Of a DNA stretch of 64,000 nucleotides, positions 8,444 to 20,338 are shown piece after piece. The stretch covers positions 1-64,000 of the forward strand of contig DATBHW010000057.1 in assembly GCA_036557285.1 (NCBI GenBank), written 5' to 3'. The translations under genes were made by a program, and so were the position numbers. The first letter of the stretch is position 1. Each line of letters begins with the position of its first letter. This DNA is from Ktedonobacterales bacterium (GTDB taxonomy: Bacteria; Chloroflexota; Ktedonobacteria; Ktedonobacterales; DATBGS01). Under the pieces are notes generated by a model, which did no database searches, was not told where the DNA came from, and worked only from the letters and a program-made list of their open reading frames with translations.

Positions 8444-8941
8444 TCAGTGTGAGGCTGTTCCTGCTTTACGCCCGCCTGCTCCTGCGCGGCAATCTTCACA
8501 GCGCCCAAAGAGTTCGATTGAATGGCCCTCCAGGGCAAAGTTCGTCTTGCTGGCAATCGCGGCAAAGACCGCGCTCGGAAGGCACGTCTCTACTTCGATG
8601 ACTCGATGGCAGGCGGTACAGGTGATATGGTGATGATGGCTGCCCCCGCAGACCCGATAGCGGTGCGTCCCATCGGCAAACTCCACGCGATCCAACAGGC
8701 CCTGGCTCAGCAGCACTTCCACAGTGCGATAGACGGTTGCGCGCCCCAGGCGGGGATCAACCTGTTTTAACTCGTGCCAGAGTTCATCCGTGCTAAAATC
8801 CGTCGCGCTCGCTGCCAGCGCAGCTAAACGCTCGGCCAGCAGGCGACGAGGCCGCGTGTTGCGCAAGCCCATCTCCTCGAAAGCCATCAGAATCGTCTCT
8901 ATCGTGACCGCCACTTGACACACCTCGTTTTCTGCCTGCAT
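8444..8941 (-). CDS. Fur-family metal-responsive repressor
   Basis: The protein has the winged-helix N-terminus of Fur/Zur/PerR proteins (GLRNTRPRRLL, then GRATVYRTVEVL as recognition helix), a four-His metal segment SHHHHITC, and two Cys pairs (CTAC and CEDC) typical of the structural zinc site. It is divergent from a metal ABC importer whose promoter carries a 7-1-7 box, so it probably represses that operon. The start is uncertain: ATG at 8941, GTG at 8965, or GTG at 8914, the last with a GAGGTG site and the best match to family N-termini. Whether it senses zinc, manganese or iron cannot be read from the sequence. Confidence 0.88.
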   Translation of the reverse strand: MQAENEVCQVAVTIETILMAFEEMGLRNTRPRRLLAERLAALAASATDFSTDELWHELKQVDPRLGRATVYRTVEVLLSQGLLDRVEFADGTHRYRVCGGSHHHHITCTACHRVIEVETCLPSAVFAAIASKTNFALEGHSIELFGRCEDCRAGAGGRKAGTASH

Positions 8942-8977
8942 GTTCGCTTCGTGTGCCAAGAACACAGGAGCAAAGCT

Positions 8978-8983: not shown

Positions 8984-9055
8984 ACAGATACGCGCTGCGG
9001 AGCCGAAGCCCTGACCGCTTTCTTTCCTTCAATCTGCATTTGAGACACTATCTCA

Positions 9056-9084
9056 TTGACAAGCATCAAAAAATCTGCTATGCT
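9056..9084 (+). promoter_or_regulatory. Sigma70-like promoter of the metal-uptake operon
   Basis: A consensus -35 TTGACA (9056-9061) and a -10 TATGCT (9079-9084) are separated by exactly 17 bases. Transcription should begin near 9091 and run toward the binding-protein gene at 9400. Confidence 0.75.
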
Positions 9085-9095
9085 CTTTTTGTTTC

Positions 9096-9110
9096 TGATA
9101 CATTGTATCA
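9096..9110. promoter_or_regulatory. Perfect 7-1-7 Fur-family operator
   Basis: TGATACATTGTATCA is a perfect 7-1-7 inverted repeat, the architecture of Fur, Zur and PerR boxes. It lies at about +6 to +20 relative to the predicted start site, where bound repressor would block transcription. The divergent Fur-family gene is the obvious source of the repressor. The half-site TGATACA is nearest to Fur-type half-sites (TGATAAT) but not identical to any consensus I know. Confidence 0.7.
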
Positions 9111-9144
9111 TACATGTGATGCCGTTCCTATGCTTGCCAATAGG

Positions 9145-9378
9145 GGTTCTACCAAAAAGTGGGGGCCACTTGTAGCGCCGCCTCCCTTCGGGAAGGGCCG
9201 CTTGACCGCGCTGGGCGCGGCCATTCTCGCTCGGCTGCGCCTCGCTCGCGCGTCCCTTCCAGGCGGCCAACGCTGCGCCCTGGCGAGCGTTCGCCTCCAG
9301 GCCACGGCGCCAGCAGGCCAACGTTGGCCGCCGAGACGGCGGCGCTACCAGCGGCAACCCCCGATCATTGGTGGAACC
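9145..9378. mobile_element. MITE-like palindromic element, copy A, with 9-bp target duplication
   Basis: The element starts with GGTTCTACCAA and ends with TTGGTGGAACC, inverted ends with one mismatch. Inside them are longer inverted arms built on CACTTGTAGCGCCGCC. The perfect 9-bp direct repeat GCCAATAGG flanks it (9136-9144 and 9379-9387). It contains no coding gene of its own. It lies between the promoter/operator and the start codon of the metal-binding protein gene, so it would be part of the 5' leader and fold strongly. Removing it with one repeat copy leaves a normal leader of about 65 bases with the GGTGGAG site intact. Confidence 0.8.
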
Positions 9379-9399
9379 GCCAATAGGTGGAGATAGCCT

Positions 9400-10386
9400 A
9401 TGTCTCACCCCCACGTTCCTGATGCTGGCGCGCGCGCCCTGCTGTCTCCTGGGCTGCGCCAGGTCTCTCAATCGGGGGGAGGCATGCTGGCGAGTCTGCT
9501 GGCCCTCTCGACGCTGCTCTTGATCCTGACCGGCTGTGGCATACCAACGGCAAACGGCGCCAGTGATGGCAAGATACAGATAGTCGCTGCCGAAAATGTC
9601 TGGGGCAGCATCGCTGCCCAGATCGGCGGCGTCCACGCCAAAGTCAACAGCATCATTGTCAACCCGAATACCGACCCCCACGATTACGAGGCTACCCCCG
9701 CTGACGCCCGCGCCATCGCCAGCGCAGGCTACGTGATCTTCAACGGGGTCGGCTATGATCCCTGGGTCCGCCAGCAGCTTGACGCCAATCCGGTCAGCGG
9801 ACGCCGCGAACTGGATGTTGGGAAGTTCCTGGGCAAACAGGGAGGCGATAATCCACATTTTTGGTACAATCCTGACTATGTGACGCGGATAGCCGACCAG
9901 ATTACCAGTGACCTCAAACGCCTGGACGCGGCTGATGCGTCCTATTTCGATCAGCAGAACCAGCAGTTCCTGACGACAGGACTCCAGAGCTATCATGACC
10001 TCATCACCATGATCAAGCAGAAGTATCAGGGGACGCCTGTGGGGGCCACCGAAAGCCTCTTCATGTATCTGGCGTCAGCCCTGGGGCTGAACCTGATTTC
10101 GCCCCCAGGGTTTATGAAAGCCATCTCGGAAGGGATCGAACCGACAGCCGCAGACAAAGTAACCTTCGATCAGCAGATCACGCAGAAGCAGATCAAGGTT
10201 CTGGTTTATAATAAACAGAATGCTACCCCGGACACAGAAGCTCTCAAGGCGAAGGCACAGCAGACGGGCATTCCTATTGTGGCAATGACCGAAACCCTGG
10301 ACCCAGGCTCCGCCAGCTTCCAGGGATGGCAATCGGCCCAGCTTCAGGCTCTTGAGCAGGCGCTGGCCCAGGCCACCGGCATGTAG
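9400..10386 (+). CDS. Metal ABC transporter substrate-binding lipoprotein (ZnuA/TroA/PsaA cluster)
   Basis: The protein captures a divalent metal outside the membrane for the ABC importer encoded downstream. It has an N-terminal hydrophobic stretch ending in a lipobox (LILTGCG). Likely ligands are H94 (DPHDYEATP), H153 (DNPHFWYNP), E218 (GATESLF) and D301. A Glu at the third position is typical of manganese proteins such as PsaA, whereas ZnuA has His; the His-rich loop of zinc proteins is also absent. Metal choice is therefore open. I chose ATG 9400 because GGTGGAG precedes it; ATG 9484 also has a strong site (GGGGGGAGG) and would give a shorter signal peptide. Confidence 0.9.
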   Translation: MSHPHVPDAGARALLSPGLRQVSQSGGGMLASLLALSTLLLILTGCGIPTANGASDGKIQIVAAENVWGSIAAQIGGVHAKVNSIIVNPNTDPHDYEATPADARAIASAGYVIFNGVGYDPWVRQQLDANPVSGRRELDVGKFLGKQGGDNPHFWYNPDYVTRIADQITSDLKRLDAADASYFDQQNQQFLTTGLQSYHDLITMIKQKYQGTPVGATESLFMYLASALGLNLISPPGFMKAISEGIEPTAADKVTFDQQITQKQIKVLVYNKQNATPDTEALKAKAQQTGIPIVAMTETLDPGSASFQGWQSAQLQALEQALAQATGM

Positions 10387-10479
10387 CCTGCAATCAACGG
10401 GGCGCGGCCTGCCTTTTTGTTCTGGCAGATGCCAGAGACACATCGCTCCCAATACCTATCTCCTATAAGAGGACCGTTC

Positions 10480-11403
10480 ATGACACGCATCGCAACCGGC
10501 GCAGATTCAGCGCCCTCAGACTCTTCCGACCCCTGGGCGCTCTGCCAGCGGGCTGCCGACCCCACTTCAGAGCGCGAGGTCGTCATAGCCGCCGAGCGCG
10601 CCGGGGTCCGACTGGGCGGGCGCGCCATCTGGCGCGAGATGACCTTCGAGGTTCGCTCAGGTGAATGTATTGCCGTTCTCGGTCCCAATGGGGCGGGTAA
10701 ATCCACATTGCTCAAAGCCTTGTCAGGGCTGGTCCCGCTCAGCGAAGGCGAAGTACGCGTGCTGGGAACGCCCACGCGCCGAGGCAATGCTCAGATTGGC
10801 TATCTTCCCCAGCGCCACAGTTTTGACGCGGATGTGCGCGTGCGCGGGCGCGACGTGGTGCGCCTCGGCCTGGATGGGCGGCGTTGGGGGATTCCCCTGC
10901 CAGGGCTGCGGCGTCTCTGGGGCGGCGACAAATGCGCCCGCCAGGCAGCGGCGCGAGTCGAAGAGGTTATCGAACTGGTAGGCGCGAGCAGCTACGCCAA
11001 TCGGCCTATTGGCGAACTCTCCGGCGGTGAGCAGCAGCGGCTGCTGATCGCTCAGGCGCTTGTAAACCGGCCACGTCTGCTGCTACTGGATGAACCGCTC
11101 GAAAGCCTGGACCTGAACAACCAGCAGATCGTCGCCGCGCTGATTCGGCGCGTCAGCCAGGACCAGCAAGTAGCAGTGCTGCTCGTGGCCCACGATGTCA
11201 ATCCCATCCTACCCTATCTGGATCGGGTCATCTATATCGGGCGCGGCCAGACCGCCATCGGCGCGCCGCAGGAGGTCATCACCTCCGAGACGCTCTCGCG
11301 GCTCTATGACGCCCCTATCGAAGTACTGCGGACCAGAGACGGGCGCGTGGTGGTTGTCGGGCAGCCAGAGGAGGTCAGCTATCGTGTTCATCGCCCTCGC
11401 TGA
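10480..11403 (+). CDS. Metal ABC transporter ATP-binding protein (ZnuC/MntB type)
   Basis: The 307-residue ATPase has the Walker A motif GPNGAGKST, the signature LSGGEQQR, a Walker B LLLLDEP and the switch His in LLVAHD. It drives import through the two permeases encoded immediately downstream. An N-terminal extension of about 35 residues, rich in Asp, Ser and Ala, precedes the usual domain. ATG 10480 has an AGAGGA site; an in-frame ATG at 10417 lacks one. Its 3' end overlaps the start of the first permease by 20 bases, which implies translational coupling. Confidence 0.93.
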   Translation: MTRIATGADSAPSDSSDPWALCQRAADPTSEREVVIAAERAGVRLGGRAIWREMTFEVRSGECIAVLGPNGAGKSTLLKALSGLVPLSEGEVRVLGTPTRRGNAQIGYLPQRHSFDADVRVRGRDVVRLGLDGRRWGIPLPGLRRLWGGDKCARQAAARVEEVIELVGASSYANRPIGELSGGEQQRLLIAQALVNRPRLLLLDEPLESLDLNNQQIVAALIRRVSQDQQVAVLLVAHDVNPILPYLDRVIYIGRGQTAIGAPQEVITSETLSRLYDAPIEVLRTRDGRVVVVGQPEEVSYRVHRPR

Positions 11404-12289
11404 TGATGTCCGGCTCTCCTGGGATTTGCTGGCCGATCTGCAACAGCTCTTTACTTACCACTTCATGCAAAACGCCTTCCTGGCGGGGACGCTGGTGGCT
11501 ATCGTGGCCGGAGCCGTCGGGTATTTCATGACGCTGCGCAGCCAGAGCTTTGCTGGTCATACGCTGGCCCAGGTGGGCTTTCCGGGCGCGCTGGGGGCGG
11601 CGCTGCTGGGCCTGTCGCCGGTTGTTGGGCTGCTGGCCTTTGGCCTGGGCGCGGCGCTCTTGATCGGCGCACTCAGCGCCCGCGAGGTCAAGGGCCAGGA
11701 TAGCGCCGTCGGCATCGTCCTCGCCTTCAGCCTGGGGCTGGGGCTGCTCTTCGTGCGCCTCTCCCACGCCAACAATACGACGGGCATCTACTCGCTCCTC
11801 TTTGGCGCGGCGCTGGGTGTCAGTGACCGCGATCTCGGCCCCATCGCCCTGACCACCCTGGCAACCCTGGTGACGCTGGTGGTCATTGCCCGCCCGCTCT
11901 TTTTTGCCTCCCTCGATCCCGAAGTCGCGGCGGCTCAAGGCGTGCCGGTGCGCCTCCTCTCCATACTCTTTCTATCGCTGCTGGCCTTTGCCGTCGCCGA
12001 AGCGGTTCAGGTCGTCGGCGTCCTGCTGATCTTTGCCCTGCTGGTGACGCCTGCCGCCATTGCCCAGCAGATCACCGCCCGCCCCGCGCTTTCCATCGGG
12101 CTATCAGTCGTCCTGGCGCTCCTCTTCACGTGGAGCGGGCTGGCTATCGGCTATTTCACCCCTTACCCGATTGGCTTCTTCATTACCAGCTTTGCTTTTG
12201 GCGCTTACGCGCTGGTCCGGCTGGCGCGCGCCTGGCATCGCTGGCTCGCGCAGCACAAGCAGGCCGCGCAGAAGGGGGACATGGCATGA
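11384..12289 (+). CDS. Metal ABC transporter permease 1 (ZnuB/TroC family)
   Basis: This polytopic membrane protein of the ABC-3 family has eight or nine hydrophobic helices, the GHTLAQVGFPGALGAALLG coupling segment and the AVAEAVQVVGVLLIFALLVTPAA motif region near the C-terminus. The start is most likely the GTG at 11384, preceded by GAGG and overlapping the ATPase gene; reading further upstream gives only a low-complexity Ser/Arg-rich extension inside the ATPase gene. It ends in an ATGA overlap with the second permease. Confidence 0.9.
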   Translation: MFIALADDVRLSWDLLADLQQLFTYHFMQNAFLAGTLVAIVAGAVGYFMTLRSQSFAGHTLAQVGFPGALGAALLGLSPVVGLLAFGLGAALLIGALSAREVKGQDSAVGIVLAFSLGLGLLFVRLSHANNTTGIYSLLFGAALGVSDRDLGPIALTTLATLVTLVVIARPLFFASLDPEVAAAQGVPVRLLSILFLSLLAFAVAEAVQVVGVLLIFALLVTPAAIAQQITARPALSIGLSVVLALLFTWSGLAIGYFTPYPIGFFITSFAFGAYALVRLARAWHRWLAQHKQAAQKGDMA

Positions 12290-13224
12290 GAGAGAAAGCT
12301 GGCGCGGCGTTGCTCTCGGTCATCCCGCCCTTCTCCCCTAACCTCATTGCGGATGCCCAGGAAATGTTCCAGCATGATTTTATGCGCTACGCCTTCCTGG
12401 CGGGAACGGCTATTGCCCTGGCTGCCGGGCTGGTCAGCTACTTCGTCATCATGCGTCATCAGGTCTTTGCAGGCGATGCACTCTCCCATGTCGCCTTTGC
12501 GGGCGCGCTGGGCGCTGCCGTCCTGGGCGTCAACTTGCTCCTGGGCCTCTTCGGCGTTGTCATCGCAGCCGCGCTTGGGATTGGCCTGCTGGGGGAGCGC
12601 GCGCGGGCGCGCGATGTCGCCATTGGCACAGTCCTGGCCTGGGTACTGGGGATAGGCGTCCTCTTCTTAAGCATCTATACCTCGACGGCCAGCGGCTCCA
12701 ACGGCTCTGTCGGGATCAACGTCCTCTTCGGAACGATCTTTGGTCTCACCAATCAACAGGCCAGCATAGCAGCCTGGGTTGGCATCGGAGCTATACTGGC
12801 CCTGCTGGTGATCGCGCGCCCGCTGCTCTTTGCTTCGCTCGATCCCGATGCAGCAGCGGCGCGCGGGGTACCCACACGCCTGCTGGGGCTGGCCTTTCTG
12901 GCGCTCTTGGGAGCTACCGTTGCTGAGGCTGTTCAGGCCGTTGGCGTCTTGCTGATCTTCTCCCTCCTGGTCGCGCCGGGGGCCATCGCCCAGCGGCTCC
13001 TCACGCGCCCCTTCGCCGCGCTGGCCCTCTCGGCGGCGCTGGCGCTGGCCTTCACCTGGGCTGGCCTGACTATCGCCTTCTATACCTCCTATCCCGTCAG
13101 CTTCCTCATCAGCGCGCTCGCTTTCTTCACCTATCTGCTGGTCCTGCTGGCGCAGCGCGTTCGCGCATTCTGGACACGCCGCCTGAACCCCACGCTCACC
13201 GCTGGCAGAGGTCGGGGAGGCTGA
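12286..13224 (+). CDS. Metal ABC transporter permease 2 (ZnuB/TroC family)
   Basis: A second 312-residue ABC-3 permease follows at once, its ATG overlapping the previous stop as ATGA, with GGGGG as ribosome-binding site. It has the same signatures as permease 1 (GDALSHVAFAGALGAAVLG; TVAEAVQAVGVLLIFSLLVAPGA) and is clearly its paralogue. Many operons of this family encode one permease that forms a homodimer; some, such as tro-type systems, encode two that pair. Heterodimer formation is inferred from the tight coupling. Confidence 0.92.
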   Translation: MREKAGAALLSVIPPFSPNLIADAQEMFQHDFMRYAFLAGTAIALAAGLVSYFVIMRHQVFAGDALSHVAFAGALGAAVLGVNLLLGLFGVVIAAALGIGLLGERARARDVAIGTVLAWVLGIGVLFLSIYTSTASGSNGSVGINVLFGTIFGLTNQQASIAAWVGIGAILALLVIARPLLFASLDPDAAAARGVPTRLLGLAFLALLGATVAEAVQAVGVLLIFSLLVAPGAIAQRLLTRPFAALALSAALALAFTWAGLTIAFYTSYPVSFLISALAFFTYLLVLLAQRVRAFWTRRLNPTLTAGRGRGG

Positions 13225-16978: not shown

Positions 16979-17223
16979 GGTTCCACCAAACATGAGGTGT
17001 TAGCAAGCGAGGTGTGTTACTTGTAGCGCCGCCTTCCAGGCGGCCACCGCTGCGCCAGGGCGAGCGTTCGCCCTCCAGGCCACGGCGCCAGCAGGCCAGC
17101 GTTGAGCCGCCAGGAGGGACGCGCGAGCGACCAACGGGAGCGAGAATGCCGAGGCCCAGCCGAGGCAAGCGGCCCTTCCCGAAGGGGGGCGGCGCTACAA
17201 GTGGCCCGCTTTTTGGTGGAACC
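16979..17223. mobile_element. MITE-like palindromic element, copy B
   Basis: The 245-bp copy has ends GGTTCCACCAA and TTGGTGGAACC and inner arms CTTGTAGCGCCGCC / GGCGGCGCTACAAG. Flanking 9-mers (GCGCGCCGG and GCCCCGGGG) match only in part. A TATAAT at 17233-17238 follows its right end directly. The copy includes a 29-base stretch (17121-17149) that recurs exactly at 29141-29169. Confidence 0.7.
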
Positions 17224-20177: not shown

Positions 20178-20338
20178 GGTTCCACCACCTATCGGGCGGC
20201 ATCACCTGTAGCGCCGCCATCTTGGCGGCCAGCGTTGGCCTGCTGGTCCGCTGGCCTGGAGGGCGCACGCTCACCCTGGCGCAGCGGTGGCCGCCTGGGA
20301 GGCGGCGCTACAAGTGACCCCCGATAATTGGTGGAACC
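20178..20338. mobile_element. MITE-like palindromic element, copy C
   Basis: A short 161-bp copy with GGTTCCACCA at the left, TTGGTGGAACC at the right and inner arms CCTGTAGCGCCGCC / GGCGGCGCTACAAG. The flanks begin GCGAAGAGC (20168-20176) and GCGAAGGGG (20339-20347), 7 of 9 identical, which suggests a decayed 9-bp duplication with one base inserted at the left end. It lies upstream of the metallophosphoesterase gene. Confidence 0.7.

Follow-up and report, generated by a model that had tools for sequence, protein, structure and literature searches.

A short inverted-repeat element with a REP-pair body in the leader of a predicted metal-importer operon of a Ktedonobacterales bacterium

Introduction

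Bacterial MITEs such as NEMIS/Correia, RUP, ERIC, Nezha and MITEAba12 are short, gene-less units with inverted ends that duplicate their target. They are found in many intergenic copies and, where they are transcribed, give rise to RNA hairpins (PMC3733652, PMC6382973). REP/BIME sequences have a different architecture, in which a GTAG head is followed by a palindrome and the repeats are arranged as inverted pairs (PMC2817692, PMC3733652). In REPtrons, where REP/BIME repeats are combined with a RAYT (REP-associated tyrosine transposase), the head is GTAG or GGAG, the palindrome is GC-rich, the inverted pairs are present in hundreds of copies, and the cognate RAYT genes are flanked by the same repeats (PMC2817692). 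In addition, Pseudomonas putida and fluorescens contain double inverted repeats in which a degenerate GTAG-1 unit is joined to unrelated stem-loops (PMC3733652).

The element described here, which lies upstream of a predicted metal-importer operon, has features of all three systems. It resembles the bacterial MITEs in its size, its lack of genes, its inverted ends, its target duplication and its many intergenic copies; however, the duplication is of 8 or 9 bp, the body is a GTAG REP pair, no matching transposase was found, and the ends could not be matched to a named IS family. The body shares with REPtrons the headed GC-rich palindromes in inverted pairs, the hundreds of copies and the flanked RAYT genes, but here a subset of the REPs is enclosed in terminal inverted repeats (TIRs) with duplications, and is thus the cargo of another transposon. 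The Pseudomonas composites, which likewise combine a GTAG unit with an unrelated inverted repeat in hundreds of copies, flank RAYT-type genes, whereas the present element is bordered by 8/9-bp duplications; the words ‘duplicat’ and ‘target site’ do not occur in the text that describes those composites (PMC3733652). No description of this MITE family, or of any MITE with a RAYT REP body, was found in the openly accessible literature.

Results

Anatomy of the element and its insertion site

The initial annotation of the window (the whole stretch of 64,000 nucleotides that was analysed) had reported a pair of inverted ends and a perfect direct repeat on either side of them, and all of these sequences were found exactly where it had placed them. 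The 9-bp repeats, GCCAATAGG, bracket an element of 234 bp, the body of which contains no plausible gene (Table 1). The inverted ends are 11 bp long with a single mismatch (T/C, position 6). The chance of a perfect 9-bp repeat at one fixed place is approximately 4^-9. The first three bases of the SD-like sequence are part of the duplicated target, and the copy as a whole sits well within a contig of 95.7 kb. When one mismatch was allowed, the end motif occurred seven times in the window against an expectation of 1.05, and two more TIR pairs (16979-17223 and 20178-20338) were located there, neither of which has a clear duplication.

Table 1. Coordinates of the element, its insertion site and the surrounding importer locus in the window.
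Feature	Position	Strand	Basis and remarks
FUR-family regulator gene, divergent; Fur/Zur/PerR type not resolved	8444..8965	-	Pfam PF01475, E 3e-25
Second 7-1-7 palindrome TGAGACACTATCTCA, abuts -35 box	9041..9055	.	counterpart in equivalent position in L066/G018
Sigma-70 type promoter, TTGACA-17-TATGCT	9056..9084	+	10/12 consensus bases; TTGACA conserved in L066
Perfect 7-1-7 palindrome TGATACATTGTATCA, Fur-family-like putative operator	9096..9110	.	identical in L066/L089
Target-site duplication, left copy GCCAATAGG	9136..9144	+	sequence
Non-autonomous TIR element (MITE), 234 bp	9145..9378	.	sequence, genome-wide copies
Left TIR GGTTCTACCAA	9145..9155	+	sequence, genome-wide counts of end motif
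Left REP head GTAGCGCCGCC (GTAG + palindrome)	9172..9182	+	sequence, genome counts
Extra GC-rich module, ~74 bp, within left REP	9183..9256 (boundaries approximate)	.	alignment of copies
Right REP head, reverse complement of GTAGCGCCGCC	9338..9348	-	sequence
Right TIR, reads TTGGTGGAACC (+), GGTTCCACCAA (-)	9368..9378	-	sequence
Target-site duplication, right copy GCCAATAGG	9379..9387	+	sequence
SD-like AGGTGGAGA	9385..9393	+	sequence
First operon gene, ZnuA-type metal-binding lipoprotein (ABC importer)	9400..10386	+	Pfam PF01297, E 1.3e-44
Importer ABC ATPase and two ABC-3 permease genes	10417..13224	+	Pfam PF00005, PF00950 twice; ORFs overlap, starts not refined

A family of extragenic copies with a 9-bp, sometimes 8-bp, target duplication

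A DNA search of the bacterium's own genome (5.1 Mb in 82 contigs) with the element returned 86 matching pieces, and about 70 copies of the element are scattered across intergenic gaps. The end sequence GGTTCYACCAA is present in 136 exact copies, compared with five for a reversed control. The arms of the copies could be aligned and the ends are common to the family; paired copies are about 110-460 bp long, and the alignment shows that the ∼74-bp module of the window copy is missing from copies of 160 bp. Contigs C16, C19, C33, C52, C53 and C66 of this assembly (G000) break within MITE/REP copies, and the copy number is therefore a lower bound.

In a first pass with looser ends, 46 distinct elements displayed a duplication with no more than one mismatch. 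A stricter set comprised 68 distinct end-to-end pairs, which were picked blind to their flanks. Here the 9-bp duplication was perfect in 31 pairs and carried one mismatch in a further 11, so that 42 of the 68 have a repeat with at most one mismatch, while four pairs had two mismatches. The 22 pairs that fall outside this range include eight with an exact duplication of 8 bp. When the right flank was shifted by one base only this 8-bp class and one other match were recovered, and shifts of two or more bases gave no match at all. The family thus duplicates nine, sometimes eight, bases of its target, and the duplicated targets show only a weak base preference. The initial annotation had proposed a non-autonomous transposon with a 9-bp duplication, and the family bears this out: with 31 exact and 15 near-exact cases among the 68 pairs, the other copies are far from never showing 9-bp repeats. 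Moreover, with the flanks joined, none of 66 insertions fell within a stop-free frame of at least 1000 nt, compared with 43% of control positions, and the persisting copies are therefore extragenic.

Two individual copies have unusual surroundings. Closest to the window copy is L002 (G000:C70:19336-19564; 94%), in which the second end is degenerate. It is enclosed by a direct repeat of ∼19-20 bp, and the inner 9 bp of this repeat, TTTGCCCTG, appear to be the duplication. At L026:1454-1819, two MITE copies lie 9 bp apart, with GTCCGTGTC between them, and have one common outer 9-bp duplication, GCAGGCGAT, as if they had moved as one composite unit.

The MITE family is lineage-specific. Among 46 other genomes of the order and class, all from outside its own family, no convincing copy was found, the full element giving two short borderline matches only, and a longer end motif that occurs 57 times in the bacterium's own genome was not found in the others. 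Similarly, the viral contigs, plasmids and phages that were searched contained no copies.

The body of the element is a pair of REP palindromes

The interior of the MITE consists of two GTAG-headed REP palindromes in inverted orientation to each other, which form GTAGCGCCGCC-loop-GGCGGC hairpins. Of the 68 copies, 66 contain this pair, and its distances from the ends are fixed, mostly at 26-30 or 44 bp. Across the genome the GTAGCGCCGCC sequence occurs 833 times, compared with 35 occurrences of a reversed control; most of these lie outside the MITE, and many REP pairs stand alone without MITE TIRs. The same sequence is not similarly enriched in other genomes of the class. Three proteins encoded in the genome score above the NCBIfam REP_Tyr_transpos cut-off for RAYTs. 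At the clearest of these RAYT loci (L280, G000:C55:165651-165833 and its flanks), four exact GTAG-type REP heads are present on each side, and no MITE TIRs were seen. The element is a MITE with a REP pair as its body, and its outer ends represent a separate mobility system. The REP body is the unusual part, and had been missed by the initial annotation.

The search for an autonomous transposase

Searches of the genome with PF01609, PF00872, PF06782 and PF03400 gave either no matches or matches without these ends. A derivation of the MITE from ISAs1 or from IS1 was rejected, the copies of these elements in the genome ending in CAGGGCTATT and in about GGCAGTGGCGA, respectively. The IS256 locus is without such ends and no ISLre2 is present, so IS256 and ISLre2 were rejected as well. 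None of the TIR pairs with a spacing of 0.6-4.5 kb showed a clean duplication in ∼0.65 Mb of fetched stretches (overlaps included), and contig ends near TIRs contained ordinary MITE/REP sequence and no transposase. The autonomous partner may have been lost, may be unassembled, or may belong to a transposase family beyond the four searched. Because contigs break in MITE/REP copies, a multi-copy partner could be absent from the assembly.

Two insertion sequences of the same genome were seen in more detail. An apparently intact ISAs1-type element (L147:1370-2711) ends in CAGGGCTATTTAATAG and shows a duplication of 9 bp, TCCTGATGC. An IS1-type element (L282:1048-1844) comprises two overlapping frames; its ends are close to GGCAGTGGCGAAAAGTGCAG, and it shows an 8-bp repeat, CTCATGCC, when one mismatch is allowed.

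The importer locus and an element-free ortholog

The insertion had been placed between the operator and the ribosome-binding site of a metal-uptake operon, and the gene content agrees with this, with ZnuA, ABC and ABC-3 genes downstream and a FUR-family gene in divergent orientation. None of the NCBIfam equivalogs reaches its cut-off at the importer locus, and the metal transported is therefore not settled; nor does any score above cut-off for the FUR-family gene. A Fur-family protein probably controls the operon, and the leader that contains the element is presumably transcribed.

In G018, which belongs to another family of the same order, the orthologous locus (L066) has the same divergent fur/importer layout and no element. 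The TTGACA box and the main palindrome are shared, as is a similar second palindrome on the -35 side, and L066 is identical to L089 across the fur/importer promoter region. From the box to the ATG there are 60 bases by direct count in L066, which is an element-free ortholog at the order level and not a strict empty site. The same distance is 304 bases in the window, or 61 once the element and one repeat (243 bases) are subtracted. The initial annotation had claimed that removal of the element with one copy of the repeat gives an ordinary leader, and the leader of the ortholog matches this in length.

The second palindrome upstream of the importer promoter (window 9041-9055) is near-identical to its counterpart in L066, which suggests a two-operator Fur-family switch.

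The predicted fold of the leader RNA

The leader RNA (9091-9420) is predicted to fold as a long hairpin with a free energy of -171.6 kcal/mol (z = -7.9). With the element in place, the SD had a mean unpaired probability of 0.15 and the AUG one of 0.34; in its absence the values were 0.17 and 0.34, respectively. A terminator-like site was not detected in the leader region, and an Rfam search returned sub-threshold chance matches only. The idea that the insertion changes expression of the importer is not supported by these data: since the ribosome-binding site is predicted to be equally accessible whether or not the element is present, such an effect is unproven. As the hairpin is self-contained and the SD and AUG are unchanged in the model, any effect on the importer is most likely weak or nil; altered mRNA stability from the hairpin is possible.

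Discussion

It is very probable that the window element is a lineage-specific MITE with a REP-pair body, which inserted into the leader of a ZnuABC-type operon, itself probably under the control of a Fur-family protein, and duplicated GCCAATAGG as it did so. Inverted ends and a staggered duplication of 8 or 9 bp point to a DDE-type transposase, and we infer a mechanism of this kind with mobilisation in trans. Such a transposase would recognise the imperfect ends of ∼26 bp (GGTTCYACCAA-) and would stagger its cut in the target by 9 bp, sometimes 8. It could thus have moved a gene-less unit of ∼160-234 bp into the 5′ leader of the importer, leaving GCCAATAGG on both sides. The unit would stack two dispersal systems, with TIR/DDE-type mobility outside and REP hairpins inside.

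To our knowledge, single-strand HUH transposition, as carried out by RAYTs for example, makes no target duplications, and the movement of the TIR unit is therefore not driven by a RAYT. This bears directly on the suggestion that a RAYT (an HUH tyrosine transposase) has spread the unit in its entirety as a REP/BIME, in which the TIR-like ends would be no more than the outer parts of the BIME. The genome does contain REP heads and RAYT genes, and TIR-flanked tyrosine transposases have been described in the GTAG-repeat paper (PMC3733652). However, most copies have 8/9-bp duplications exactly where the TIRs end, which largely refutes this reading, and many REP pairs are without TIRs, which were not seen at L280 either; taken together, this leaves it very improbable. 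It is somewhat less improbable, though still unlikely, that the element has been co-opted as the regulatory leader of the importer, as an RNA switch, an attenuator or a stabilising hairpin. Its position between the operator and the SD and the high stability of its fold would fit such a role, but the same structure is found at ∼70 unrelated places, the ortholog is without it, and neither a notable Rfam match, a terminator-like site nor any change in SD/AUG accessibility was seen. The assembly is fragmented and some contigs end within copies, which might point to an artefact, or else to inverted and direct repeats that arose by chance in GC-rich DNA. Against this stand the excess of end motifs over the control, the sharp 9-bp register of the duplications and the location of the window copy well within its contig, and we regard such an origin as scarcely credible.

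We give slightly less than an even chance to the combined proposal that the unit is a stable composite, in which a DDE-type MITE took up as its body a REP pair spread by a RAYT, and that both partners gained. In that event the REPs would have a second route of spread, while the MITE would acquire a transcript-insulating hairpin that allows it to survive in leaders and in other transcribed gaps.

REP palindromes are usually discussed as products of RAYTs only, and this genome provides a clean and countable case in which they lie within a duplication-making TIR element, so that two modes of REP spread are separated in one genome. It follows that REP counts are not readable as RAYT activity alone. 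The insertion in the importer leader in turn offers a natural experiment on the tolerance of a self-folding hairpin that separates an operator from a ribosome-binding site.

The remaining two RAYT loci differ from L280 in their repeats. At L279 (G000:C12:72467-72697 and its flanks) a GGAG-headed variant of the CGCCGCC palindrome is present on both sides, and at L278, the third, a GTAC-headed variant is present on one side. With its own REP variant at each RAYT, the three loci form a neat set for RAYT/REP co-evolution.
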